A stretch of 64,000 nt of DNA from an uncultured Poribacteria bacterium. Its GTDB lineage: Bacteria; Poribacteria; WGA-4E; WGA-3G. Below the pieces are notes generated by a model, which saw nothing but the letters and a program-made list of their open reading frames with translations, was not told the DNA's origin and ran no database searches. This document shows, in pieces, positions 2,409 through 62,298 of this stretch. The DNA is taken from NCBI GenBank assembly GCA_951828515.1, contig OX639992.1, positions 1,952,008 to 2,016,007 on the forward strand. Direction: 5' to 3'. Within the stretch, counting starts at the first letter, position 1. The number at the start of each line of letters is the position of its first letter. Made by a program: the position numbers and the translations under genes.

Positions 2409-4601
2409 CTATTTCTTCGCCAAAATAAGATTCTGGTAGGCATCAACAACAGCGGAGAAATTCGGGGGTATTACAGTCGTCGCGCTAAATTCTGTCACAA
2501 TCGCGGGACCTGCGATTTGATTGCCGGGACGCAACGCCTCACGGCGGTAGAAATCGGTTGGGAGTGCTTCACCTTCAAAGATAACAGGATTTTGGGCAGT
2601 AAACGCTTCAGAGGCATCAGTATCGGCGAGTGAAACTGATTGGATAGGAGGTTTGTCGGTTTCCCCAGTGGCTGTAAGTCGTAGGTTCACCACCTCCACT
2701 GGCGCGTCATTTCGGGCATAGCCAAACCGTAATTCATGTGCAGCGTGAAATCTCTCAATAAGCGTCTCTATCTCGGTTGAAGATGCATGTTCCATGGTAA
2801 AACACGGAATATTCAACTCATAAGACTGTCCCTCATACCGCATATCAAGCGAACGGTCAATTTTAAGTTCGTGCGGAGCGAATCCCTCAAATTTCATCTC
2901 GTTCTCTGCGCGGGTCGAGAGTGTGCCAAAACCGGTGTTCAACGCTTTAACAAGACTCCTGCTATCTTCGCCGCTCTTTTCAAATTGCCATAGTACTGTC
3001 TGCGAATAATCTTTAACAACATCTGCAAAGAGCATTCCGTAAGCAGAGAGTAAACCACCATTTGGCGGAATAAGCACTGTCTCAATTCCGAGATTTTCTG
3101 CCATAAATGCGGCATGCAAACCGCCAGCACCTCCGAAGGAAACGAGCGTGAAATCACGTGTATCAAACCCGCGTTCCACAGAAATGACCTTGATGGCACG
3201 TTCCATCGCTGCGTTAGCAACCTTAAGAATGCCATCCGCCGCTTGCATCGGTGGAACACCAAGACGTTTCGCAAGCTCTTCAATGTGTGTCAGCGTCTTA
3301 TCGGAATCCAGGGACATTGCACCCCCTAAAAACTGGGTTGCCGCGATGCGTCCCAAGTAGAGGTTCGCGTCGGTTACCGTGACATCTTCTCCGTTGTTTC
3401 CGTAGCAGATGGGACCTGGATCTGCTCCCGCGCTTTCTGGTCCGACGCGTAGTGCGCCACCGGCATCCACAGTCGCAATAGAACCACCCCCTGCACCGAC
3501 GGTGTGAATATCGATGAGTGGAACTTTGATTGGGAGTCCACTAATCGTGCTCTCGGTTGTGAGGGAGATACCGCCATTGCAGAGACTCACATCCGTTGAA
3601 GTGCCCCCCATATCAAACGTGATGATTTGATCGTAGCCAGCGGTTTTGGCGACTTGATACGCACCAATAACGCCCCCAGCAGGACCGGAAAGGACTGTGC
3701 GGATACCCGCGGATTCACCTCTGTATAGCAAGTTTTCAGCTTGCAAGCTACGCTGAAAAATCTCGGCAGAGATACAACCGCCGTTGGAAAGCATCAAACG
3801 GAACGATTTTTTAATTTTACCTTGCGGAACGGTTTCGTTAAAACCGCGCAGCAAGTCAGAATCCGTCAGCGTAGAGAGATGCCGTTCTAAAGTAGGACGG
3901 ATATACGCGTTCGCTACAGTGGTGCTGAAACGCGCATACTCCCGATATTCCGGTAAAACTTCGTGTGAACATGAAACGGGTATATCAAGCCGCGCAAGGT
4001 GTTTCGCAACAATTTGTTCGTTCTGTGGATTGACGTAGGCAAAGAGGAAACAGACAGCGATGGCATCGAGTTCCAATGTAGCGAGTTTGGACACCAGTGC
4101 CTCTAAATCGCTTGACTCAATCTCCGTTTGGATTTCACCGGTGTGCAGTGTCCGCTCTGATATACCGAAGCGTCTATCGGCAGGGACAAGGGGCGCGGGA
4201 CGTTCCACGAAGAAATCATAGAGGTTCGGACGTGCCTGTCTGCCTATCTCCAAAATGTCCTCAAAATCCTTCGTCGTGACGAGGGCGATACGCGCACCTC
4301 TACGCTCAAGAAGCGCGTTCGTTGCCACCGTCGATCCGTGGACAATGTCCAGCCGTTCGGTATCGGCACCGTGCATACGCAAGATTTCACTCACACCTTG
4401 TATTACAGCGAGAGCAGGGTTCTGCGGTGTGGACAGGACTTTGTGCGTGAATAGGTCGCCATTCATCCGCAGCACAATGTCGGTGAAGGTACCACCCGTA
4501 TCAACTCCGATATTTTTAACTGTGGGGGTTTCTGCTCGATTTTCTCCGTTGTCGAAAATCGGTTTTTGATGAGATTGAGGCTCATCTGGGATCAATTGCA
4601 T
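2409..4601 (-). CDS. HyuA-type N-methylhydantoinase / 5-oxoprolinase subunit A
   Basis: An ATP-dependent hydantoinase/oxoprolinase A-subunit protein of about 730 residues. The N-terminal actin-like ATPase signature is NIGVDTGGTFTDIVL. Later come VHGSTVATNALLERRGA, the GPAGGVIGAYQVA segment, FDMGGTSTDVSL and VSFGGAGGLHA, all typical of HyuA. An upstream ATG at 4649 would overlap the preceding dehydrogenase by 8 nt. I prefer the ATG at 4601, which follows the purine-rich GAAAGAAGAAAAAAG. HyuA usually works with a HyuB partner, but none is next to it here; the gene sits in a sugar/organic-acid dehydrogenase cluster. Either HyuB lies elsewhere or this is an orphan with another substrate. Confidence 0.88.
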   Translation of the reverse strand: MQLIPDEPQSHQKPIFDNGENRAETPTVKNIGVDTGGTFTDIVLRMNGDLFTHKVLSTPQNPALAVIQGVSEILRMHGADTERLDIVHGSTVATNALLERRGARIALVTTKDFEDILEIGRQARPNLYDFFVERPAPLVPADRRFGISERTLHTGEIQTEIESSDLEALVSKLATLELDAIAVCFLFAYVNPQNEQIVAKHLARLDIPVSCSHEVLPEYREYARFSTTVANAYIRPTLERHLSTLTDSDLLRGFNETVPQGKIKKSFRLMLSNGGCISAEIFQRSLQAENLLYRGESAGIRTVLSGPAGGVIGAYQVAKTAGYDQIITFDMGGTSTDVSLCNGGISLTTESTISGLPIKVPLIDIHTVGAGGGSIATVDAGGALRVGPESAGADPGPICYGNNGEDVTVTDANLYLGRIAATQFLGGAMSLDSDKTLTHIEELAKRLGVPPMQAADGILKVANAAMERAIKVISVERGFDTRDFTLVSFGGAGGLHAAFMAENLGIETVLIPPNGGLLSAYGMLFADVVKDYSQTVLWQFEKSGEDSRSLVKALNTGFGTLSTRAENEMKFEGFAPHELKIDRSLDMRYEGQSYELNIPCFTMEHASSTEIETLIERFHAAHELRFGYARNDAPVEVVNLRLTATGETDKPPIQSVSLADTDASEAFTAQNPVIFEGEALPTDFYRREALRPGNQIAGPAIVTEFSATTVIPPNFSAVVDAYQNLILAKK

Positions 4602-4641
4602 CTTTTTTCTTCTTTCACGTGATGGTTTCTTTAACAAAACC

Positions 4642-5601
4642 TTAAACAACTACGTTCTGTGGTGTGCCTTTCAAAAAAGCGATGATATTGTCCACCGCGC
4701 CCTCATTAAGAAGCTCAACACCTTCAGGGGTCATATCCGCACAATGTGGGGTCAAAATTACCTGCTCGCATTCCAAAAGCGGGTGGTTCGCCGGGGGCGG
4801 TTCCTGATCATACACATCAATAGCCACCCCACCGAGGTGTCCGCCGTTCAAAGCCGCGACCAACGCATCTGTATCAATTACACCGCCACGTGCGACGTTG
4901 ATTAGGAGCGCGCCCTGCTTCATCAAACCGAGTTCACGTTCCCCTATGAGATGGTGGCTTTCCTCTGTGAGTCTGACGTGCAAACTCACAACATCAGCAG
5001 CACGCAGCAGTTCGTCCAGAGAAACAAATTCAACCCCCAACGCCTCCGCGCGCGCCCGCGAAGGGTGATACGTCCACGCAATAACGTTCATCCCGATCGC
5101 TCGTCCAAGGCGTGCCATCTCTGCCCCGATATGCCCAGTGCCTATAACTCCCAAGGTTTTCCCTTGAAGGTAGATATTATCCATACGGGGCCATCCCCCT
5201 GCCTTCATAGACGCTGTCAGGAACGCCGCTCGTTTGGCGAGTGCGAACATCAATCCAAATCCGTGTTCTGCTACAACTGGAGCGGTACGTCCGGGTTGAT
5301 TGCAAACGGTAATTCCACGTTCTTTCGCCTCATCAAGCCCAATCATATCGGTACCGATAGAGCAAAGTGAAATCAACTTGAGCTTGGGGAGTTGGCGTAG
5401 GATTTCCGCGGGCCATTTGACGATCCCGCGTGAATTGATGAGGACATCTGCATCACCGGCACGGCGAATTTGCTCTTCGGGCGTTTCAGGTCGGTCGGTG
5501 TAAAGAACAACATCGCCATAAGGTACCAAACGTTCCAGATGCGACGAGCCTTGGATTTGCGGTGGTGAATCACCCGGAACAACGATTTTAAGTTTGTTCA
5601 C
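4642..5601 (-). CDS. D-isomer 2-hydroxyacid dehydrogenase, SerA-like
   Basis: A 319-residue NAD-dependent D-2-hydroxyacid dehydrogenase (phosphoglycerate/glyoxylate reductase family). The Rossmann motif is LGVIGTGHIGAEMARLG. The catalytic Arg lies in the stretch NVARGGVIDTDALV or just before it, Glu in DVYDQEPPP, and the catalytic His in LTPHCADMTPEG. Translation starts at a GTG preceded by AAAAAAGGAATGAATT. It lies 15 nt downstream of the iron alcohol dehydrogenase and 40 nt upstream of the preferred hyuA start, so the three are probably co-transcribed. It lacks the C-terminal ACT domain of long SerA enzymes, so serine biosynthesis is less likely than catabolic hydroxyacid oxidation or reduction. 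Confidence 0.9.
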   Translation of the reverse strand: MNKLKIVVPGDSPPQIQGSSHLERLVPYGDVVLYTDRPETPEEQIRRAGDADVLINSRGIVKWPAEILRQLPKLKLISLCSIGTDMIGLDEAKERGITVCNQPGRTAPVVAEHGFGLMFALAKRAAFLTASMKAGGWPRMDNIYLQGKTLGVIGTGHIGAEMARLGRAIGMNVIAWTYHPSRARAEALGVEFVSLDELLRAADVVSLHVRLTEESHHLIGERELGLMKQGALLINVARGGVIDTDALVAALNGGHLGGVAIDVYDQEPPPANHPLLECEQVILTPHCADMTPEGVELLNEGAVDNIIAFLKGTPQNVVV

Positions 5602-9609: not shown

Positions 9610-9702
9610 GTTTTTTTAGTTTTCCTTGCGGTTCGATGAACGACGTTTTTTTGGACGTGCCTTTTCGTAATCCAGCCCGCCCGTCGGTTGGGCTTACCGT
9701 TT
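9610..9702 (-). repeat. Start-proximal repeat upstream of purH
   Basis: Read on the gene strand, the unit starts near AACGGTAAGCCCAACC and ends in GAACCGCAAGGAAAACTAAA just before the purH ATG. It shares its end with the units before mutL, the VWA gene, the acetyltransferase gene and the SNF2 gene. The AAGG may act as a distant Shine-Dalgarno (14 nt from ATG). Confidence 0.7.
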
Positions 9703-9738
9703 TTCTTTGGTGCGAAGATTTATTTAAGAGTATGCCTA

Positions 9739-11085
9739 CTACCTTTCTGTAACATATCGGGGGAACCCAAACCCGTCGTTTGCGACGTGGCTTCGCGCCG
9801 GAATCTGCGAGCGGTTGGGTATAATCAGGTCCATTTCCGATGTATTCTCAATGACAGTGCCGTCTCCAATGCGCACCTCATCTCCGATATAGATTCTTCC
9901 GGGATGCTCTGCCGCGCCTCGGATCGTCCCGATCACGACTGATGAACCGATGCGACACCGCTGTTCGATTTCAACAAACCCATAAATCTCGGTGTTCGTT
10001 CCGACAGTGGAATAGTCAGAGACCTGGACAGGTCCGAGCAGGCTGGTGTCCGTGCCGATTTCAACAAAATCGCCGATGACGGGGTGTCGTTGCTTTACTT
10101 TGACACTCAAGCCACCGAACGTGCTTGGATAGATAACACATCCGCAACCGATGATGCCCGTCTGTCCAGTGGTTACCCCGCGATGTGGGTGTTCCAAGAA
10201 ATTGGCATCGCCTATCTGCGTTTCCGGGTGTAAATCGGCTTGATAGTAGCGTCCACCGAGTTCTGAGATGGCGCGCGGCAACAATGGGACCGGGATCCTG
10301 TGAATGTTTGGACTCTCTTCAAGGTCATCACTTCGGGTTAAAGCGTGTGCGACATCGTGGTAAAAGAGTACTCGCCAACCGGGATACGTACTCCCTACCA
10401 ATTGGAGTTGATAATCCAAAACAGATGCGAGATTCAGACTACCAAGAAAGTCTTGGTAGGATTCAAAGGTTCGTTCCTGAATTGCGGTATCTACTTGGGA
10501 ACGGAAATCAAGTGCGGCGAGTTTTTCGCGAGAGATACCGGTGTGGAGGAGATAAGCATCCCAGACAGCCGGATCTTTAAGAGAGGCGAAGCGATTCCAA
10601 AGGGCTCGACTTTTGAGCCGTGGCAGTTCCCAGAGGAGCGAAAAAGCGGTTTCAAGTGCAGCACCGAGACGTGTGTCGTCCGTAACAGCCAAAAACGATT
10701 GTGCTACCATCGCATACAACTGGTCTGCGACTTCCTCAATCGCTTCTGAGAGTTCGCGTCTTTGGTTACGCAACTGCGGTGCGTTATGCGATCCGGGTGC
10801 GACACATTCCAGCAAATTACCGAGTACAGTCTCAAGGATATCTCGATTGACAAATCCGCGTCCAGAGCGTTGCGCTAACCCCTCTCGACTCATACTGTCA
10901 ATACGTAAAGCGTCCAGTTCAGATTTGCTATAGATGGGACGCAAACGTTCCAGCGTTTGGGTCAATAACGGTTTTTTTCGGTGTTCGTAAGAAGCATCAA
11001 AAAGTGTATTTTTAATTTTCCTTGCGGTTCGGTCAGGTGGGCGTGGATAATGACCTACCTTCCCGTATACCCGCCCTCCATTCAT
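9739..11085 (-). CDS. Serine acetyltransferase-like hexapeptide-repeat acyltransferase
   Basis: A protein of up to 448 residues. The C-terminal third is a left-handed beta-helix built from hexapeptides (examples: TGIIGCGCVIYPST, GDFVEIGTDTSLLG, GSSVVIGTIRG, GDEVRIGDGTVIE). The N-terminal helical part and the FYHDVAHAL...HPETQIGD passage resemble CysE-type serine acetyltransferases but are longer. The first about 28 codons lie inside the start-proximal repeat (11009-11101), and no ATG follows until residue 65. A TTG (residue about 48) or a non-standard start is also possible. The role may be cysteine synthesis or transfer of acetyl to another small acceptor. Confidence 0.75.
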   Translation of the reverse strand: MNGGRVYGKVGHYPRPPDRTARKIKNTLFDASYEHRKKPLLTQTLERLRPIYSKSELDALRIDSMSREGLAQRSGRGFVNRDILETVLGNLLECVAPGSHNAPQLRNQRRELSEAIEEVADQLYAMVAQSFLAVTDDTRLGAALETAFSLLWELPRLKSRALWNRFASLKDPAVWDAYLLHTGISREKLAALDFRSQVDTAIQERTFESYQDFLGSLNLASVLDYQLQLVGSTYPGWRVLFYHDVAHALTRSDDLEESPNIHRIPVPLLPRAISELGGRYYQADLHPETQIGDANFLEHPHRGVTTGQTGIIGCGCVIYPSTFGGLSVKVKQRHPVIGDFVEIGTDTSLLGPVQVSDYSTVGTNTEIYGFVEIEQRCRIGSSVVIGTIRGAAEHPGRIYIGDEVRIGDGTVIENTSEMDLIIPNRSQIPARSHVANDGFGFPRYVTER

Positions 11086-11101
11086 TACGGCTACGGTTTT
11101 T
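11009..11101 (-). repeat. Start-proximal repeat overlapping an N-terminus
   Basis: On the gene strand it reads GTAGCCGTAATGAATGGAGG, then a variable core, then GAACCGCAAGGAAAATTAAA. It covers the predicted beginning of the acetyltransferase-like ORF, so either it supplies coding sequence or the true start is downstream. Confidence 0.7.
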
Positions 11102-11175
11102 CATTCTATCCAAGATAGCAGCCTGCCCCAACGGCACAGGCGGATACAAGAGAAAACCCTGAATAAAAAAACGCC

Positions 11176-13792: not shown

Positions 13793-15844
13793 TTAATTCT
13801 GTCCGAAATATGATGCAACCCATACTAAATCCTGGACATTCACCACGTCATCACCATTCACGTCCGCAGTATTCACACCGGTTTGCCCAAAATGCGATGC
13901 GACCAACACCAAATCTTGAATATTCACTACGCCATCACTGTTGACATCTCCCGGTATTTGTAGGAGAAATGGCGTGAAGTCCCACAGCAAAATCGTGCCA
14001 TCTTCACTGCCGCTGGCAAGCGTGCGACCATCGGGAGACAGGGTAAGCGTGTTAACTCTGTTCGTGTGCCCTGCGAGGACCCCGAGGCGTCTCCCACTGT
14101 CCACATCCCATAATCGAATTGTGCTGTTCCAACTTCCACTCACAAGCGTGCGACCATCGGCGGAGAACGCGAGGGATCTGATCGGACCTACATTTCCCCC
14201 GAAAGTTGCTTTGGGTTGTTCGGTCTGTATATCCCACAATCGAATTCTCCTATCCCGACCTGCACTCACGAGTGTGCGACCATCCGGACTAAATACGATA
14301 GCCTGAACAGGTTCTGTATGCCCTGTCAAAGTCAATTGGCGTCGCGCAGTTCCTACATCCCATAATTGAATTGTGGTGTTTTTACCACCGCTGGCAAGTG
14401 TGCGACCATCCGGACTGTACGCAACAGCATAGACATCTTGTGTATCCCCGAGTATTGCTCTATTTCTGCCTGTCCGAGTATCCCACAATCGAACGGTGTT
14501 GTCCCAACTCGCACTCGCAAGCATGTGACCATCCGGAGTAAACACGATAACCCCAACACCGTACTTATGGCCTGTGAGTGGTGCCTTAGGTTGTGCTGTG
14601 TGTGCATCCCACAAATGAATTGTGGTGTCAGGGTTTCCTCCACCGCTGGCGAGGGTTTTACCATCTGGCGAAAACGCAACTGAAAGGACACGTCCGCCGT
14701 GCCCCGTGAGGGTATTTTGGAAATGCCCTGTGTGTGCATCCCACAAGTAGATCGATTTGTCATCGTTCGCACTGGCAAGTATTTCGCCATCTGGACTGAA
14801 TGTAACCGTATTAACCGCCAGAGCGTGCCCTGTGAGGGTTGCCTTGTGTTGCTCAGTGACAGGATCCCAAAACTGAATCACCTGATCATCGCCTGAACTG
14901 GCAAGTGTTCTACCATCAGGACTGAAGGCAACGGACTTCACCCAATGTGTATGTCCCGTCAATGTCGCTTTGAGGTCGCCAGTGGCAGCATCCCACAATC
15001 GAACCGTTTTGTCATTACTCGCACTCGCAAGCGTCTGCCCATCTTGGGAAAACACCACCGAATTAACCGCACCTGTGTGTTCTGCCAGGGTTGCTTTACG
15101 CTCACCGGTATGTGGGTTCCACAATTGAATCGTGTCATCCACACCCGCACTCGCAAGCGTCTCCCCATCAGGACTAAAGGCAACGGACTTCACCCAACCT
15201 TTATGCTCTGGGAAATAAGCGATTGGGTACTCAGTTTCCACATGCCATAATCGAATCGTGTTATCTTCCCAGCCCCCACCGCTGGCAAGCACCTTTCCGT
15301 CAGGACTAAATACGACAGAAGTGACATTTCCTTTATGCCCCTTAAGCGTTCCTATATGATTTCCCGTCTCAGTATCCCACAATCGAATTGTTTTGTTCCA
15401 TCTTCCACCCCCACTTGCTAACGTACTGCCATCTGGAGAGAACGCAATGGACGTAACATCGCCCATACCGTCTCTCATAAGAGTTTTCTTGCGTTGACCT
15501 GTATGTGGATTCCACAACCGAATCGTTCTGTCCCAACTTCCGCTGGCAAGTGTTTGTCCATCTGGTGAGAACGCAACGCACGTGACCCAAGCCGTATGCC
15601 CTGTGAGTAAGTTAACTTCTTCATGGGTATCCGTATCGTAAAGCCAAACGCCAATGGAACTGCTGACAGCGAGCAGTGTGCCGTCCGGGGAATATTGGAC
15701 GTTTCCCGTTATTGCCCCTTTACCAAGTCGTGCTTTCGTCCCTTCAGGTAAATGCCACTGGTTATAATCTTGAGAGAAGGCGTGTGGGAGAAATACCGCC
15801 CCAACAAAAAGTATCGTCAAAACCGAAAATCCTGTCAGTTTCAT
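13793..15844 (-). CDS. Exported 14-blade WD40 protein with C-terminal dockerin
   Basis: A 683-residue exported protein. The signal peptide is at 1-24 (LTGFSVLTILFVGAVFLPHAFS). By eye I count 14 WD40 blades (each ending in IRLWD-like), which fits two seven-bladed propellers. The C-terminus is a dockerin-type pair of calcium loops (GDVNSDGVVNIQDLVLVA and ADVNGDDVVNVQDLVWVA). Dockerins normally dock on cohesins, but no cohesin is seen here. The start ATG follows AAGGAGTTACACCG. The tandem blades are nearly identical at DNA level, implying recent repeat expansion. Function is likely protein scaffolding outside the cytoplasm. Confidence 0.9.
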   Translation of the reverse strand: MKLTGFSVLTILFVGAVFLPHAFSQDYNQWHLPEGTKARLGKGAITGNVQYSPDGTLLAVSSSIGVWLYDTDTHEEVNLLTGHTAWVTCVAFSPDGQTLASGSWDRTIRLWNPHTGQRKKTLMRDGMGDVTSIAFSPDGSTLASGGGRWNKTIRLWDTETGNHIGTLKGHKGNVTSVVFSPDGKVLASGGGWEDNTIRLWHVETEYPIAYFPEHKGWVKSVAFSPDGETLASAGVDDTIQLWNPHTGERKATLAEHTGAVNSVVFSQDGQTLASASNDKTVRLWDAATGDLKATLTGHTHWVKSVAFSPDGRTLASSGDDQVIQFWDPVTEQHKATLTGHALAVNTVTFSPDGEILASANDDKSIYLWDAHTGHFQNTLTGHGGRVLSVAFSPDGKTLASGGGNPDTTIHLWDAHTAQPKAPLTGHKYGVGVIVFTPDGHMLASASWDNTVRLWDTRTGRNRAILGDTQDVYAVAYSPDGRTLASGGKNTTIQLWDVGTARRQLTLTGHTEPVQAIVFSPDGRTLVSAGRDRRIRLWDIQTEQPKATFGGNVGPIRSLAFSADGRTLVSGSWNSTIRLWDVDSGRRLGVLAGHTNRVNTLTLSPDGRTLASGSEDGTILLWDFTPFLLQIPGDVNSDGVVNIQDLVLVASHFGQTGVNTADVNGDDVVNVQDLVWVASYFGQN

Positions 15845-31404: not shown

Positions 31405-31906
31405 AGGAAGATTAAAAAATAAATTGGGTAATTTCATAGAGATGCTCGGTGCGGTTAGGAAACCGCACCATAGGTGTCAATTTAAGAAAAATATGTCCGT
31501 GGCAGCGTAGGTTGGGTAGAACGGATTCCATCAAATCCCGAAAAAGTCATAAAAAAATGAAGTCTCGCCAGACACGCTATATCCAGCAGATACCGAGTGA
31601 AACCCAACGCTTTGGTTGTGAAGTTTCCGGGACTCTGCGGGTATGAAGTTGGGTTTCACTATGGTCTTGAGAGTATAGCAGCGTCTATCAGATTTCAGGT
31701 GTGTTTGGAACACCGATGTTCGCCTTCTCAAGACCGTTCAACCCAACCTACGGGCGCACTGTCCTTGGGTTAATCCCGGTTCGGTTAGGAAACCGAACCT
31801 ACCGGGCCTGGGGGACCGCTAAATTGACACCTATGGTTGGGTTAGGAAACCGCACCTACCGGACCTGGGGAAACCGGGATTACCGAATTAAATACTTAAT
31901 CTTCAT
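31405..31906. repeat. Composite repeat region with nested foldback element
   Basis: Outer ends match the 115-bp MITE termini (left near 31408; right ATTACCGAATTAAATACTTA to 31906). Inside lie palindromes at 31448-31469, 31778-31799 and 31835-31856. A 245-bp foldback lies at 31507-31751 with 18-bp termini (17/18 matching) and inner inverted repeats 31596-31608/31648-31660 and 31663-31672/31726-31735. No gene is evident in the 886-bp gap downstream of the WD40 gene. Confidence 0.65.
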
Positions 31907-31956: not shown

Positions 31957-34497
31957 CTATTTTAGAATTAACATCCGTCGCGTTGCTTCAAAATTGCCCG
32001 CAGTGAGCGTATAGAAATAGATACCACTCGCAACAGATTCTCCGAAAGCATTCTTACCATCCCAATACGCCGCACGGCTACGTGATTCATAGATTCCCAC
32101 CGCTTGCGTGCCTAACGCAAGTCTCCGGATCAACCTCCCATCTGCGGCATAGATAGAGATTTTGGCATCCGCAGGTTTTGCCAACTGATACGGTAGCCAT
32201 GTTTCTGGGTTAAACGGATTCGGGTAGTTCGGCAATAAAGCGGTCTGTTTCGGTGTTAATGTTGCAAGGAGTTGTTCCAGAATGAGAATACCGCGTTGAA
32301 ACGCCGGGTCTGTTAGGGATAACTGCCGGGCTTCCTGAAGCCATTTTTCTACCTCCGCAGCAGTGAACGTTTGGGGGATCTGAGCATTCAGAGCAGGCGC
32401 GGAAGCACTTGCACCTATGGCACCCGCAACGAGGACAAGGTCCTGTATATTGACAATCCCATCCGCATTGACATCCGCAGGATTACTTCCGGATTTCCCA
32501 AGATTTGATGCGATCAATACAAGGTCTTGGATGTTAACAATATCATCCCCAGTGACATCCTCTTTGCGCCTTGTAGGTTCAGTGGCATCTGATATAGGTT
32601 CAGTGGCATCTGATTCAGTAGAGGGATTGAGTTCCCATACGAGTACGGTGCCGTCCTTACTCCCGGTCGCAACGGTATTGCTATCCGGACCAAACGAGAC
32701 GCTATCGACCTCATCCGTATGCCCAATGAACGTGCGGAGCTCGCTACCCGTGTTCACATCCCAGACACGGGCGGTGCGGTCCCAACTCGCGGTTGCAACG
32801 GTCGTTCCATCCGGACTATACGATACGCCGACGATCGAGCCCTTATGCCCGGTGAGGGTGTGAAGCTCGCTACCCGTGTTTACATCCCACAGACGGGCGG
32901 TGTTGTCATAACTCCCGGTTAGGATGATCGTGCCATCCGGACTAAACGATACGCTGGCGACTCCAGCCCTATGTCCGTCGAGTGTGCGGAGATGGTCACC
33001 TGTGTTTGCATCCCACAGACGGGCGGTGTTGTCATAACTCCCGCTTACGATGGTCATCCCATCCGGACTAAACGATACACTTCTGACCCAATGCGTATGT
33101 CCAGTGAACGTGCGGAAATGTGAACCCGTGTTCACATCCCAGAAACGGACGGTGTTGTCACCACTCGCGGTTGCGAGGGTCGTGCCATCTGGGCTAAACG
33201 ATACATCTCTGATCCAATCCGTATGCCCGTCGAGCGTTCGGAGATGGTCACCCGTGTTCACATCCCAAAGACGGGCGGTGTCGTCATAACTCCCGCTGGC
33301 GACGATCGTGCCATCTGGACTAAACGATAGGCTGTTGACCCAAGCCCTATGCCCGGTGAGCGTGTGGAGATGGTTATTCGTGTTCGCATCCCAAAGACGA
33401 ACAGCGTAGTCCACACTCCCGCTGGCGATCGTCTTTCCATCCGGACTCAACGATACGCCGATGACCCCATCCGTATACCCGGTAAGTATGCGGAGTTCGC
33501 TACCTGTGTCCGCATCCCACAGACGGACAGTGCCGTCCCGACTCCCACTGGCGATCGTCTTCCCATCCGGACTCAACGATACGCTACTGACCCCAGACCT
33601 ATGCCCAGTGAACGTGCGGAGAGGACTCCCTGTGGTGGCATCCCAGAGACGGACAGTGTTGTCCCAACTCCCGCTGACCATCGTCGTCCCATCCGAACTA
33701 AACGATACGCTGGTGACCGTCGTCCTATGCTCGATGAGCGTGCGGAGGGGATCACCCGTGCTCACATCCCAGAGACGAATGATGAGGTCCCCAGCTGCGA
33801 CAGTGGTGCCATCCGGACTCAACGATACGCTGCTGACCCCAACCCTCTCATGCCCGGTGAGCGTGTGGAGTGGACCACCCGTATTCACATCCCAGAGACG
33901 GACAGTGCGGTCCGAACCCCCGCTGGCGATCGTCTTCCCATCTGGACTAAACGATACGCTTCTGACCCCAGACCTAACAAGGTTTCTGGTCGGTCTCTGA
34001 TGCCCGGTGAGCGTGTGGAGTGGACTACCTGTGTCCGCATCCCAGAGACGGACGGTGCGGTCCTCACTCCCGCTGGCGATCATCGTTCCATCCCGACTAA
34101 ACGAGACGCTGTTGACGCCAGATGTATGCCCAGTGAGCGTGCGGAGGGGATCACCTGTGATCGCATCCCAGAGGCGGATGTCACTGTCTTCACCCCCACT
34201 CGCCATTATGCTGCCATCTGGACTAAACGATACGCTGTTGACTCCAGACGTATGTCCTCTGATTAGTTCGAGTGCTTCGCCTGTCTGTGCGTCGTGGATC
34301 CAAATACCGATACTACTTGCGACTGCCAGACGTGTGCCGTCTGGGGAATACTTTACTTCATTTATCTTCCCTTTGCCGAGACGTGCTTTAGCACTTTCGG
34401 GTAATCCCAACGTTGTGTCGTCTTGTGCAACGGTGTTTGCCACGACAGTAAATATCGCCAAAAGTCCAACGAAAATCGAAAATAGTGTGGTTTTCAT
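31957..34497 (-). CDS. Exported 14-blade WD40 protein with dockerin and FlgD-like C-terminus
   Basis: An 846-residue exported protein (signal FSIFVGLLAIFTVVANTVAQ). By eye there are 14 WD40 blades ending in VRLWD-type motifs, consistent with two propellers. A dockerin-type pair of calcium loops follows (EDVTGDDIVNIQDLVLIA, ADVNADGIVNIQDLVLVA), then a roughly 90-residue FlgD/Por-secretion-like domain (NYPNPFNPETWLPYQL, WDGKNAFGESVASGIYFY, RRMLILK). Compared with the other WD40 protein it adds this last domain. Blade repeats are very similar in DNA, which also creates long antisense ORFs that I treat as shadows. It probably acts at the cell surface. Confidence 0.9.
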   Translation of the reverse strand: MKTTLFSIFVGLLAIFTVVANTVAQDDTTLGLPESAKARLGKGKINEVKYSPDGTRLAVASSIGIWIHDAQTGEALELIRGHTSGVNSVSFSPDGSIMASGGEDSDIRLWDAITGDPLRTLTGHTSGVNSVSFSRDGTMIASGSEDRTVRLWDADTGSPLHTLTGHQRPTRNLVRSGVRSVSFSPDGKTIASGGSDRTVRLWDVNTGGPLHTLTGHERVGVSSVSLSPDGTTVAAGDLIIRLWDVSTGDPLRTLIEHRTTVTSVSFSSDGTTMVSGSWDNTVRLWDATTGSPLRTFTGHRSGVSSVSLSPDGKTIASGSRDGTVRLWDADTGSELRILTGYTDGVIGVSLSPDGKTIASGSVDYAVRLWDANTNNHLHTLTGHRAWVNSLSFSPDGTIVASGSYDDTARLWDVNTGDHLRTLDGHTDWIRDVSFSPDGTTLATASGDNTVRFWDVNTGSHFRTFTGHTHWVRSVSFSPDGMTIVSGSYDNTARLWDANTGDHLRTLDGHRAGVASVSFSPDGTIILTGSYDNTARLWDVNTGSELHTLTGHKGSIVGVSYSPDGTTVATASWDRTARVWDVNTGSELRTFIGHTDEVDSVSFGPDSNTVATGSKDGTVLVWELNPSTESDATEPISDATEPTRRKEDVTGDDIVNIQDLVLIASNLGKSGSNPADVNADGIVNIQDLVLVAGAIGASASAPALNAQIPQTFTAAEVEKWLQEARQLSLTDPAFQRGILILEQLLATLTPKQTALLPNYPNPFNPETWLPYQLAKPADAKISIYAADGRLIRRLALGTQAVGIYESRSRAAYWDGKNAFGESVASGIYFYTLTAGNFEATRRMLILK

Positions 34498-34895: not shown

Positions 34896-35031
34896 GGCGA
34901 GGTTAATGAAGATTAAGAATTTAATTCGGTAATTTCCTAATGAGATCCGGTGCGGTTGCAAACCGCACCTACCGGGTCTGAGGGAACATAGAATTACCGA
35001 AATATTTATTTAAACCTCATCAAACCTCGCC
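34896..35031. repeat. 115-bp MITE inserted inside a hairpin repeat
   Basis: The element at 34906-35020 has imperfect inverted ends of about 28 bp (ATGAAGATTAAGAATTTAAT and the complement of its right end) and a central palindrome at 34949-34969. It splits the hairpin GGCGAGGTT (34896-34904) from AACCTCGCC (35023-35031). Removing it restores a 9-bp stem with loop ACA. No target duplication is evident. Confidence 0.75.
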
Positions 35032-36961: not shown

Positions 36962-37075
36962 ATTTTAATTTTACCTTACGGATTTTTAATTTTACCTTGC
37001 GGGTCGATCACGGAGGTTAGGACTTTCTTCTGCCTTCCCGTAGACCCGCTCTCCATTACATTACGAGCTACGCAC
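36962..37075 (-). repeat. Start-proximal repeat upstream of mutL, with duplicated end unit
   Basis: On the mutL strand it runs from TAGCTCGTAATGTAATGGAG through CCTCCGTGATCGACCCGCAA to a doubled end unit of the form AATCCG(C/T)AAGGTAAAATTAAA. The same doubling occurs before the SNF2 gene. Confidence 0.75.
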
Positions 37076-37104
37076 TTGGGTGTCAGGCACCAAGAGAAAA
37101 AACA

Positions 37105-42769: not shown

Positions 42770-42826
42770 TTTTTAATTATGGACCTTACTCGCCTGCGCC
42801 GTTATTGCAGGCGGCTTTTGTTAAAA
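42770..42826 (-). repeat. Short start-proximal repeat upstream of the MR-MLE gene
   Basis: On the gene strand: GCCGCCTGCAATAACGGCGC, a short stem-forming core, then AGTAAGGTCCATAATTAAAA directly before the ATG. It is a shorter form of the family at 9610, 11009, 36962, 55944 and 57174. Confidence 0.6.
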
Positions 42827-54168: not shown

Positions 54169-56004
54169 CTAATCGCAGGAAACTTTCTTATATCCTTTCG
54201 GCAATGGCTTTCCTGCAACAAGGGTAGATTTCAGTGGACGGACGTGTCGACAACTACCGCGGTGCGTGAAGCCAGGACAATCACACGTTACATCTACACC
54301 GACAACTTCCAGTGTATAAAACTTGCCCTTTTGCGATGAACTCTCGGCGCGATAAACATTCCGATCGGGACCGGCGAGGACTTGGGCTAAGGTACGGATG
54401 GCTTCTTCAGAATATGGGCGTAACTGCGCACGGGTCGCTTCTTGGAGATGAGACGCGTTTTCTTCAAGGTAGGCATCGCTCGCTTGTTGGAGTACATTGA
54501 GCAATTGTGGTTCTTCGACCTCGGCGGCATGCACAGAGAGCGCATTCATCATTCGCTTAAGTTCACTGAGAACATCGGGCTGGAGCGCACCGTCCTCATC
54601 AGGTATCAACAATGTACCTTCAACAAGGGCATCCATTAGCGCGGCTTTCGTCTCCAACACAGTTTTTACGAATTCGTCTACCGTGCCGCGTGCAATCATA
54701 TAGGTGACGTTAACAGTCCCCGTCTGTCCAATGCGATAGGCACGATCCTCTGCCTGCCAATGATTCGCTGGGACCCAATCTAAATCGTTGAAGACGACCT
54801 GTCGACCCGCGGTCAAATTGATTCCGACACCCGCGACGTGCATATTGGCGATGAAGAGTCTGACGTTTTCATCGTTCTGAAACTGATCGACTCGGTCCTG
54901 TCGCTCTTCGGTCGGAACTTCTCCAGAGACGAAAACGGCTCGGTCACCGAAATGTTTGTGGAAACGTTCCAGTGTATTGAGGAATGCAGTGAAAAGAATG
55001 ACCTTTTCACCCTGTTCCAATGCGTTTTCGACAAACTTGATAGTGTGTCGACACTTGGCAAAAGCGAGTTTTCGACGTGCTGTCGTTAACCTGCCAACCG
55101 CTTGTCGCCGTTCCGAATTTTCCGATTCATCTTCAATCGTACCAATAGATTCAGGTGCGTCAAACTTTGTTAGATATTCGCGGACGGCGTTATTGAAGTG
55201 CTGTATCGCATAAGGGTGCAGCTCAACATCCAACCATGTTCGTACTTTGGGTGGCAGGTCCAATACCTCGTTTTTGGTGCGTCGTAGCATCACGCCGTGT
55301 AGTTGAACGGTCAGTTCCTCAATATTGCTCGCGCCATCTGCTACCAATCCGAAGTCTCCCTGATAGGCATCACAATACCGTTTGGCGAAACTGAGGAAAC
55401 TCTTACCGAGGGGGTGGTCCACCAACTGCAAAATTGGGAAGAGGTCACGAGGACGGTTCGTCATCGGGGTCCCCGTTAACGCGTGGACCATTGGCTGGCG
55501 TTGAATCGCTTTCACCAGTTTAGCGGCGTTCCGACTGCGTTGACTCTGGTGATTTTTCAAGTAATGCGCTTCATCAAAGACAACACCTTTCCATTCAAAC
55601 GCGAGGAGTCCTTCCAGGTGTTTACCGAGAATCTCATAGTTGATGATAACCCAATCTTGCCCTTTAACAATACTGACGGTTGAAGGGAGGGCCCCCGGAC
55701 CTACAATGATAGGTTCAGCTGTGGGAAGCACAAGTTCGATTTCACGCGCCCAGTTCCGTTTAACAGAGGCAGGACAGACGACAAGATAGGGACCTTCGGG
55801 TTCAGCCTCAACCATCGCGATGACGGACTGTCGAGTTTTGCCAAGCCCCATATCGTCGGCAAGAAGTGCCCGGCGACGACCGAGCAGGAAGGCGATCCCT
55901 TCTATCTGATGTGGATAGAGCCCTTCGGCAATCTCTTCAGCACGTTTTTTAATTTTACCTTGCGGATTTTTAATTTTACCTTGCGGAGGTAGGACGTGGT
56001 TCAT
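54169..56004 (-). CDS. SNF2-family helicase with C-terminal SWIM zinc finger
   Basis: A protein of about 611 residues. Helicase motifs are: LADDMGLGKT (I), FDEAHYLKN (II), ALTGTPMTNRP (III), VAGVGINLTAGRQ (V) and QAEDRAYRIGQT (VI). A SWIM finger ends it (VTCDCPGFTHRGSCRH). The architecture recalls annealing/remodelling helicases of the SMARCAL1 type. The first about 19 residues, NHVLPPQGKIKNPQGKIKK after the Met, come from the tandem repeat at 55944-56059. No ordinary start codon lies between that repeat and the helicase core. The gene converges on P3 with about 30 bp between stops. Confidence 0.9.
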   Translation of the reverse strand: MNHVLPPQGKIKNPQGKIKKRAEEIAEGLYPHQIEGIAFLLGRRRALLADDMGLGKTRQSVIAMVEAEPEGPYLVVCPASVKRNWAREIELVLPTAEPIIVGPGALPSTVSIVKGQDWVIINYEILGKHLEGLLAFEWKGVVFDEAHYLKNHQSQRSRNAAKLVKAIQRQPMVHALTGTPMTNRPRDLFPILQLVDHPLGKSFLSFAKRYCDAYQGDFGLVADGASNIEELTVQLHGVMLRRTKNEVLDLPPKVRTWLDVELHPYAIQHFNNAVREYLTKFDAPESIGTIEDESENSERRQAVGRLTTARRKLAFAKCRHTIKFVENALEQGEKVILFTAFLNTLERFHKHFGDRAVFVSGEVPTEERQDRVDQFQNDENVRLFIANMHVAGVGINLTAGRQVVFNDLDWVPANHWQAEDRAYRIGQTGTVNVTYMIARGTVDEFVKTVLETKAALMDALVEGTLLIPDEDGALQPDVLSELKRMMNALSVHAAEVEEPQLLNVLQQASDAYLEENASHLQEATRAQLRPYSEEAIRTLAQVLAGPDRNVYRAESSSQKGKFYTLEVVGVDVTCDCPGFTHRGSCRHVRPLKSTLVAGKPLPKGYKKVSCD

Positions 56005-56059
56005 GATTTGACGGTTTTCGCGCAAGCACCGCCCTCCACTTCGTTACGGGCTACGGTTT
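55944..56059 (-). repeat. Start-proximal repeat encoding the SNF2 N-terminus
   Basis: A unit of about 115 bp ending in a doubled CCGCAAGGTAAAATTAAA. Its ATG at 56004 is in frame with the helicase. The next copy lies at 56082-56178. Confidence 0.75.
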
Positions 56060-56081
56060 CGCGGCACAGAAAAGACGCACT

Positions 56082-56178
56082 CTTTTTAATTTTACCTTGC
56101 GGAGGCAGGATGTGGTTTGTGCTTTGACGGTTTTCGCGCAAGCACCGCCCTCCACTTCGTTACGGGCTACGGTTTTTT
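56082..56178 (-). repeat. Second adjacent start-proximal repeat copy
   Basis: It is about 90% identical to 55944-56059 but has a single end unit and no gene start beneath it, lying between the SNF2 gene and the VWA gene. It indicates local tandem duplication. Confidence 0.7.
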
Positions 56179-56192
56179 GAGGCTAATTTTCC

Positions 56193-57173
56193 TTATCTAC
56201 CTCTACCTCTGTCGACAAGCCATAAATCTCCCTCACTGACGGTCGAGAGGCGTCTCAACATCACAGCACCCGGGAAATTAGGTGCCATTCCGATCCCCAT
56301 CGCGAAGATGCGTCCGTTACCTGCGGCGTGTTGACCAACGAGCGTGAGATCCGGTCCCGAAATCGTGGTAGGAATGCCGTCGCTAAACAAAACAACGATA
56401 GTAGGTGCGGTTTTGGCAACTTCGGTCAACGCCGATAGCATATCGTGGTCGGTCCCTTTTGTGTGAATTTGGGATTGGATGTCGGCGAGATAGTTTGACG
56501 ATGTGGCAACTGCCTGCTCCGTTACAGGGACGAAGCCTTCTTGGTAGACGATGAGTTCCGCACTAAACGCTACGATATTGAAACTATCGTGTGGTTCAAG
56601 GAAAGTAAGCGAATTCCGCATGAGATCTATAATCCGTTTGAGTTTCCGCGGCGGCAGATTTTGCATACTCGTAGAGAGGTCGATGCAGTAGACGATGCGC
56701 TGTGGTCCTTCTTGCGCTTCAATGAACCTCACTAACCGGCTCTTGGGGCGTGCTTTGGCTTTTTTCTCTTTTTTGAAAGGACGTTCGATGACCCTTTGCA
56801 CACGTGGCGTGTCGTCAAATTCGACATTGGTTGCGGTGGGTCCAACAGGTTCTCCCACGTCTTCGGTGTCGAAGGGTTGGAAAGGTGCGGGTTCCGCTGC
56901 GGAGACGACCCCTCGGTTGCTGGGAGGTTGATTGCTCGTGAGAATTTTCAGTCGTGGTTGACTGACATCACGTGTTCGTCTGTGCCTGACTTGTGTGCGT
57001 TTCGGAGGTGTCACGCGCCTGACCTTCGGCTTTTCTTCGATGACAAATAGGGCATTGATAGCGTCAGCATTCCGCTGTGGATTGGTGCTAAACCAGAAGA
57101 AAAGTCCGAGCACCCCAACACCGAGGTGCAATAGGACAGAGATAAGCAATGCTTTACTGGACTTCGATTTCAT
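56193..57173 (-). CDS. Membrane-anchored VWA-domain protein
   Basis: A 326-residue protein with one N-terminal membrane helix (KALLISVLLHLGVGVLGLFF) and a Pro/Arg-rich, TonB-like linker. The C-terminal von Willebrand A domain shows the MIDAS motif DLSTSMQ near 170, plus LFSDGIPT near 265. The body is likely periplasmic. ATG 57173 is preceded by CCGCAAGGAATAATTAAAAT, from repeat 57174-57268. Partner proteins are not evident in the window. Confidence 0.87.
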   Translation of the reverse strand: MKSKSSKALLISVLLHLGVGVLGLFFWFSTNPQRNADAINALFVIEEKPKVRRVTPPKRTQVRHRRTRDVSQPRLKILTSNQPPSNRGVVSAAEPAPFQPFDTEDVGEPVGPTATNVEFDDTPRVQRVIERPFKKEKKAKARPKSRLVRFIEAQEGPQRIVYCIDLSTSMQNLPPRKLKRIIDLMRNSLTFLEPHDSFNIVAFSAELIVYQEGFVPVTEQAVATSSNYLADIQSQIHTKGTDHDMLSALTEVAKTAPTIVVLFSDGIPTTISGPDLTLVGQHAAGNGRIFAMGIGMAPNFPGAVMLRRLSTVSEGDLWLVDRGRGR

Positions 57174-57268
57174 TATTTTAATTATTCCTTGCGGAGGAAC
57201 AGCGTGCGTTTGAACTTTGACGCGCGTTGCTTATATCCGCTCTCCATTACATTACGAGCTACGGATTT
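57174..57268 (-). repeat. Start-proximal repeat upstream of the VWA gene
   Basis: On the gene strand: CCGTAGCTCGTAATGTAATG near the start, ending CTCCGCAAGGAATAATTAAA. It is followed upstream by another copy, 57337-57427, in a gene-free stretch. Confidence 0.7.
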
Positions 57269-57336
57269 TGAGGCTATCTTAGGAGGCAACTTTTGTGAGA
57301 AGAACACCTCTTACCCGATCGCTGATAGCTGATTGC

Positions 57337-57427
57337 TAATTATTCCTTGCGGCGGAACAACGGACATCCTACTATACAGTGCATTTCTTAAAACCCACCT
57401 GCGCTGTTGTTGCAGGCTACGTTTTTG
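57337..57427 (-). repeat. Free-standing start-proximal repeat copy
   Basis: It contains TAGCCTGCAACAACAGCGCA and ends CCGCCGCAAGGAATAATTA, but no gene follows; beyond it lie short GCTGATTGCT-type repeats. The remainder of the 57174-57623 gap shows no gene. Confidence 0.6.
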
Positions 57428-57623
57428 TCTATCTTTTGGGGTTCGATACGTTTCTAAACCGTCAAGGTCAATATCCCTTTCAACTCTATCTCTATGAAGT
57501 ATCTCCGCAAAGAGTATAGCATATCTTATTGGCTACGTCAAGTTTTGACGATTCGGCGGTGCTGCCCCACGAACATAGGCGGGTACGAAGCCCACCCATT
57601 CACCTTCTAATTTCACAACCTAT

Positions 57624-62183: not shown

Positions 62184-62298
62184 ATGAGGATTAAGAATTT
62201 AATCGGGTAGTTTTTACCGATACCCGGTGCGGTTAGGAAACCGCACCTACCGGGTCTGGGGGAACATAGAATTACCCAAATATTTTATTAAACTTCAT
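62184..62298. repeat. 115-bp MITE with central palindrome
   Basis: Imperfect inverted ends (ATGAGGATTAAGAATTTAAT on the left; the complement begins ATGAAGTTTAATAAAATATT on the right). The central hairpin is at 62226-62247. It is the same length and plan as 34906-35020. Confidence 0.7.

Follow-up and report, generated by a model that had tools for sequence, protein, structure and literature searches.

We analysed a 64-kb window, the whole stretch of DNA considered here, from a Poribacteria genome represented by a single contig of 5.85 Mb. Neighbours of its purH in public genomes place it in Candidatus Poribacteria, which are sponge symbionts. Searching the window with the query CCGCAAGGWAAAATTAAAA (≤3 mismatches) recovered ten copies of a short end unit, all ten of them minus-strand, where shuffled sequence predicts 0.03 (Table 1). 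Ends of the form CCGCAAGGWAWAATTAAAA precede purH, mutL and a VWA gene, and variant ends precede two MR-MLE genes; Pfam confirmed MutL, PurH, VWA and both MR_MLE genes. Read directly, the gap between AAGG and ATG is 12 bases at mutL, 14 at purH, 13 at the VWA gene, and 12 and 14 at MR-MLE genes 1 and 2, respectively. Both the repeat ends at these five starts and the AAGG placed 12-14 nt before ATG had been described in an earlier note on this DNA, and direct reading and Pfam agree with that description. The mutL leader carries two end units in tandem, with a single hairpin in front of both. The SNF2-helicase copy and its tandem neighbour share about 95% identity over 93 nt.

Table 1 Copies of the element, its end unit and its variants in the 64-kb window
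Feature	Position	Strand	Details
MR-MLE gene 1 variant end AAGGTATAATTAAAAA	2187..2205	-	ATG 2186; no hairpin 1 in front
End unit (PQGKIK) in frame within hydantoinase A gene 2409-4649	3809..3827	-	
purH element	9613..9721	-	end unit 9613-9631; hairpin is a GC-rich variant, about 9679-9693; ATG 9609
Element continuing in frame into hexapeptide-repeat gene 9739-11085	11009..11120	-	end unit 11009-11027
mutL element	36963..37096	-	left arm to about 37096; hairpin 1 37048-37068; middle
mutL tandem 21-nt end units	36984-37002 CCGCAAGGTAAAATTAAAA; 36963-36981 CCGTAAGGTAAAATTAAAA	-	then one base, ATG 36961
MR-MLE gene 2 variant	42770..42812	-	hairpin 1 42792-42812, directly then AAGGTCCATAATTAAAAA; ATG 42769
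SNF2-helicase copy	55947..56079	-	tandem end units 55947-55965, 55968-55986; hairpin 56031-56051; continues in frame (..MNHVLPPQGKIKNPQGKIKK..) into SNF2-type helicase gene 54169-56025
Tandem neighbour of the SNF2-helicase copy	56084..56195	-	end unit 56084-56102; hairpin 56147-56167; no start codon directly behind
VWA-gene element	57176..57287	-	end unit 57176-57194; hairpin 1 57239-57259; ATG 57173
Copy further upstream of VWA gene	57334..57445	-	end unit 57334-57352; hairpin 57397-57417; no start codon directly behind

The unit is the end of an element of ~90-110 nt that consists, in order, of an A-rich left arm (about TTAAAACCAAAACCGTA), a 21-nt hairpin (hairpin 1), a middle of about 45 nt, the 8-mer CCGCAAGG and an A-rich tail. 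Between copies, mean pairwise identity is highest in CCGCAAGG (0.99) and the tail (0.85), intermediate in hairpin 1 (0.67) and the middle (0.47), and lowest in the left arm (0.36) and the flanks (0.25). Hairpin 1 covaries: its stem pairs are complementary in 96-100% of copies versus 75-89% after shuffling, with compensatory C-G/T-A exchanges. Its loop or shoulder often holds nested short modules (GTTTTTGCTTGGGCGTTTCCCC or small palindromes), with the stem intact. A second hairpin in the middle, hinted at by single-sequence folding, was rejected (z-scores near -1.2, one covarying column pair). The tetramer before the hairpin is GTAG in 54 of 119 full copies, ATAG in 18, GCAG in 11 and CAAG in 10. 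Most hairpins (127/140) have an end unit within 170 nt; the other 13 have none nearby. In divergent gene regions, for example in the left flanks before 2366674 and 1963016, head-to-head hairpin-1 pairs share a spacer like TGCTGTCTTGGATAAACC.

Genome-wide, the end unit has 489 matches at ≤2 mismatches in 5.85 Mb, and the reversed control has none. A 2.0-Mb sample contained 192 end units and, by profile (E below 1e-3), 211 elements, which extrapolates to about 650 elements per genome. Among the 192 end units, ATG lies exactly one base after TTAAAA (+1) at 59 and one 21-nt tandem unit later (+22) at ten, with 1 to 8 copies at each of the remaining offsets. Gene starts were taken from a self-written simple gene finder and are approximate, and the +1 peak is independent of it. 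The 211 elements comprise 191 intergenic copies, 15 located at 5' ends of genes on the same strand, four lying deeper and one antisense. For 159 of the 191 intergenic elements the next gene is co-oriented (null, 56%). Where the neighbouring genes stand in tandem, 133 elements are same-sense and 23 opposite (null, 1:1). Beyond the adjacent class, 28 copies lie 4-30 nt from the start, 19 lie 31-100 nt and 43 lie >100 nt. The end unit is thus tied to start codons far beyond chance, and the +1 peak together with the orientation bias excludes copies scattered without regard to starts. The genome-wide search that the earlier note had suggested therefore bears out its view that the repeat ends favour start codons. 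One array (G000:C1:2189107-2189421) has three near-identical copies in tandem with a 148-nt period, and only the last adjoins an ATG.

The 16S tail (GGATCACCTCCTTTCT; CCTCCTTTCT) is complementary to AAGG. Native genes of the genome have Shine–Dalgarno (SD) sequences mostly at an aligned spacing of 4-10. Aligned to the anti-SD, the AAGGA of the element's A variants has a spacing of 9; the T variants (AAGGT) present a four-base AAGG match at the same place. At ATG-adjacent copies the final 20 nt before the start are element sequence, so no other SD is available there. From this match and spacing, AAGG appears to act as the ribosome-binding site at ATG-adjacent copies, and mutL has no candidate for such a site other than the inner end unit. 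Where the end lies 0-3 nt before ATG, AAGG would be used as the SD and the A-rich tail as the spacer, an arrangement best explained by the element having become the translation start region of the gene. The earlier note had proposed a ribosome-binding or upstream control element; the AAGG/anti-SD match at spacing 9 and the tie to start codons support the first of these, not the second.

Selection of CCGCAAGG as a ribosome-binding site is plausible. In copies found by the body alone, 2 of 376 CCGCAAGG positions are changed beside ATG and 23 of 720 elsewhere (p = 0.004), a difference that may partly reflect damaged copies and copies without the end. The change rate is 0.5% next to ATG, 1.2% where a gene follows without an adjacent ATG, 1.8% in tandem copies and 5.7% with no gene behind, the last figure coming mostly from three matches that lack the end altogether. 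The 8-mer is also kept within genes, in tandem copies and in copies that no gene follows, so its conservation has a further reason besides ribosome binding.

The end unit can be read in three frames: frame 0 (PQGKIK) and frame 1 (RKVKLK) are open, and the frame of the +1 ATG reads TAA AAT TAA, whose stops would separate the gene from upstream reading. Because the two other frames are open, copies behind an ATG or inside a gene would be tolerable as N-terminal or internal peptides. About 20 copies with no following ATG lie in an open frame with a gene and are, by coding scores, putative N-terminal fusions (for example, with a slash at the junction, ..KEKLK/IPRIGFIGLGNMG, ..PQGKIK/KALVTGGAGFMG, ..ARKIKN/ILITGANGYLAQ and ..PQGKIK/KLGTLYLVSTPIGNL). 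Many of these have an in-frame ATG within the element ahead of the junction, and translation of the fusions would start from the element. The putative fusion products include an epimerase, an rsmI-like protein and the SNF2 helicase. Homologues of gene 9739-11085 begin with M(S/A/T)ETTLFDASYE; here the ATG and the next codons are missing, leaving ..ARKIKN/TLFDASYE. In hydantoinase A, four congeners carry the full element in frame (..NETVARNEMEG..YPQGKIKKSFRLML..) and five others lack it; the gene in the window keeps the end unit alone (3809-3827), which is probably a deletion derivative of the full element. For annotation, Poribacteria start codons beside PQGKIK/RKVKLK-like N-termini should be treated as repeat-derived.

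Homologous sites were compared using search loci, purH neighbourhoods and 20 pieces of one further genome (G023). In 22 congeners, what precedes the mutL start is this element, a different repeat family or neither of them, and the purH starts of about 50 Poribacteria are mostly element-free, with few carriers. Nine MR-MLE starts with the end unit use ATG, whereas ten without it use TTG behind their own SD; the element bodies of the carriers differ, and a TTGACA/TATACT-like promoter is kept upstream in some. This comparison indicates that the same start has been occupied more than once and that the native leader has been partly lost. Element-free homologous starts, or starts with another body, thus occur for mutL, purH, MR-MLE and gene 9739, so that the comparison with homologous genes put forward in the earlier note yields congeners without the element or with a different one. 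Its suggestion that the repeat spreads by insertion near starts fares less evenly: the congener sites fit insertion or replacement, but they do not show that insertion as such favours starts. Same-site copies in related species are about 80-99% alike. Among dispersed pairs in the sample, the closest is 83% alike and the median is about 50%, which gives no sign of recent transposition.

Nearly all members of the genus carry copies, and high numbers occur in this genus (g1) only: seven sampled species have 265-450 copies per genome, the rest of the genus 0-144 and other genera of the order 0-3. A single exact end unit with an element was found in a different family of the order (G035, locus L137), preceding the same PHP-like gene (MIIDSHTH) as in G000; either this copy was transferred horizontally or its contig was misbinned. 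TTAAAA also terminates a second repeat family (..CCGATTTTGACAACGGAAAAATCGGAGCRGAAACCCAATATTTAAAA; loci L273-L302), which has at most 35 copies in a genome, adjoins ATG within 1-3 nt at 8 of 30 loci and lies before mutL in G004-G007, G010, G013, G015 and G020 (L151-L169). Chimeras join a first-family hairpin 1 to a second-family end (G000 block B1.6M, minus strand). At loci L169 and L170 (G007:C19), the mutL match is split between two reading frames, which may reflect a frameshift in the assembly concerned.

Considering the anatomy, the start-codon register, the orientation bias, the genus-wide range, the presence, absence and body turnover at homologous sites and the in-frame copies, all of which were observed, our preferred reading (probability of roughly 0.7) is that these are genus-specific non-coding dispersed elements, preferentially joined to gene starts, whose end serves as a translation start region. 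Copies would persist where new sequence is tolerated, and preferentially where they are joined to gene starts. They presumably moved by a transposase-like or recombination process, and would derive either from many old source lineages of low activity or from copying during which the body is rewritten. A bolder version of this reading seems improbable to us, namely a mobile translation-start cassette whose spread is directed to start codons, which hands its own ribosome-binding site (perhaps with the ATG) to hundreds of genes and whose copying process keeps the 8-base core exact while rewriting the body at nearly every copy.

How the copies came to adjoin start codons can be read in several ways. 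It is possible, if less probable, that selection did all of the sorting with no transposase involved: intergenic insertion or copying would occur anywhere, and ATG-adjacent copies would accumulate by replacing weak native leaders. The rarity of antisense and mid-gene copies is what purifying selection would give, copies do occur at other distances (4-30, 31-100 and >100 nt), and the ATG of the nine MR-MLE carriers, as against TTG with its own SD in the ten non-carriers, could be produced by selection; however, the single-base +1 peak (59 copies versus 1-10 elsewhere) is sharper than an SD spacing tolerance of 4-10 would yield. That register would instead be carried over from donor to recipient if leaders recombined or switched templates, with short homology linking a donor leader and its ATG to a recipient start, a reading that we hold equally tentatively. 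Such joining would also explain the replacement of native SDs and the change from TTG to ATG at MR-MLE genes, the chimeric heads and tails (hairpin 1 with a family-2 end), the tandem 21-nt end units and the position of the conserved part beside the junction. It needs no reverse transcriptase, and none was found in three high-copy genomes, but no conserved tract of donor codons follows the ATG, and the copying step and the homology at the left end are unsupported. A SINE-like retroelement, hinted at by the A-rich tail and by 5'-shortened copies, was set aside as a leading explanation, as no reverse transcriptase (Pfam RVT_1) was matched in these genomes (G000, G012 and G023, with 388, 265 and 298 copies). 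The left arm consensus (TTAAAACCAAAACCGTAG) and the right end (CCGCAAGGTAAAATTAAAA) show no clear inverted copies by eye, with the left boundary ill-defined, and left junctions at homologous sites are too divergent for a target-site duplication to be read.

We consider it very unlikely that a RAYT (Y1 tyrosine transposase) mobilises the elements as a REP family, although the hairpin follows GTAG in 54 of 119 copies and ATAG or GCAG in a further 29, and although Y1_Tnp genes are present in 23 of 24 congeners. Neither element nor hairpin lies within 1.5 kb of any of this genome's six Y1_Tnp loci, and few hairpins (13 of 140) lack a nearby end unit. The number of Y1_Tnp genes does not track copy number: genomes with 16, 265 and 401 copies have 12, 0 and 4 such genes, respectively, the second of these genomes being 89% complete. 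Among Y1_Tnp transposases, the class examined, no autonomous partner with the same ends was found. A conserved regulatory 5' leader RNA of a regulon, whether riboswitch-like or the target of a trans-acting RNA or protein, would account for the compensatory changes in the hairpin and for the fixed distance to the start codon; it strikes us as most unlikely nonetheless, given that no Rfam covariance model matched the window or the element, that the middle is about 47% alike with little pair support, that the genes served look unrelated, and that copies lie in genes and where there is no gene, with congener homologues lacking the element. Least credible is a conserved upstream open reading frame coupled to the gene through an ATGA overlap, as in MIRU, directional intergenic repeats that are reported to overlap start and stop codons at gene boundaries. 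In 21 of 52 ATG-adjacent copies, frame 0 of the end stays open until it stops in ATGA, but frame 0 through the body is open in 19 of 52 against 19.1 expected from shuffled bodies, and on this chance-level result the candidate was rejected. Unlike MIRU, the Poribacteria element has no conserved open reading frame, and we know of no sequence relationship between the two.

On the preferred reading, the element belongs to the short dispersed hairpin elements, and we regard it as a separate kind from two that behave alike. Rickettsia palindromic elements (RPE) are 105-146-bp dispersed hairpin-forming repeats that lie between genes and in frame within conserved protein genes (PMC2229807). The Poribacteria element likewise is dispersed, has a hairpin and is inserted in frame in a conserved gene (hydantoinase A, in addition to the N-terminal fusions). 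By contrast, descriptions of RPE give them terminal inverted repeats and long stem–loops, whereas here the 21-nt hairpin 1 alone is supported, the other end is a directional A-rich unit with an SD-like AAGG, and the main position is against start codons. TAACTGA repeats of marine Beggiatoaceae occupy hundreds of intergenic bases, mostly in forward orientation ahead of start codons; their largest class stops 1 nt short of the start, and a translational role was proposed (PMC4679880). The abutment of start codons and the commonest end position, 1 nt before the start, are shared; however, those repeats are short tandem heptamers with little SD character, unlike an element of ~100 nt with a hairpin, an SD-complementary AAGG and a tandem unit of 21 nt.

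GTAG REPs are short GTAG-tagged hairpins, present in hundreds of copies, with alternative complementary residues in their stems and a terminal GTAG in over 90% of the members of published families; start codons are not mentioned for them (PMC3733652). The tagged short hairpin, the copy number and the compensated stems are similar here, but GTAG is found in under half of the copies, there is no RAYT association and the hairpin is rarely solo. Nonautonomous MITEs (Correia/NEMIS, RUP and ERIC) are short, non-coding and dispersed, turn over between relatives and can alter the expression of neighbours (PMC2229807). The Poribacteria element shares the first four properties, including turnover between related genomes, but shows no clear terminal inverted repeats by eye and no autonomous partner among Y1_Tnp transposases. 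We found no earlier description of it in the open-licence literature.

If the ends are used as ribosome-binding sites, a dispersed repeat would run the translation initiation of many housekeeping genes, including mutL and purH, across the genus. Hundreds of natural replicates, together with empty sites in sister species, would show how a repeat becomes a control part of genes and how proteins gain N-termini, and movement of a repeat that has no matching transposase can be tested by comparing high- and low-copy species. The window also contains another hairpin repeat, GGTGCGGTTAGGAAACCGCACCTACCGGG, in five copies (31445-31485, 31775-31872, 34945-34985 and 62223-62263), and two arrays of coding repeats of about 126 nt (42 amino acids) at 13980-15574 and 32593-34293, which probably encode WD40-like beta-propeller proteins.
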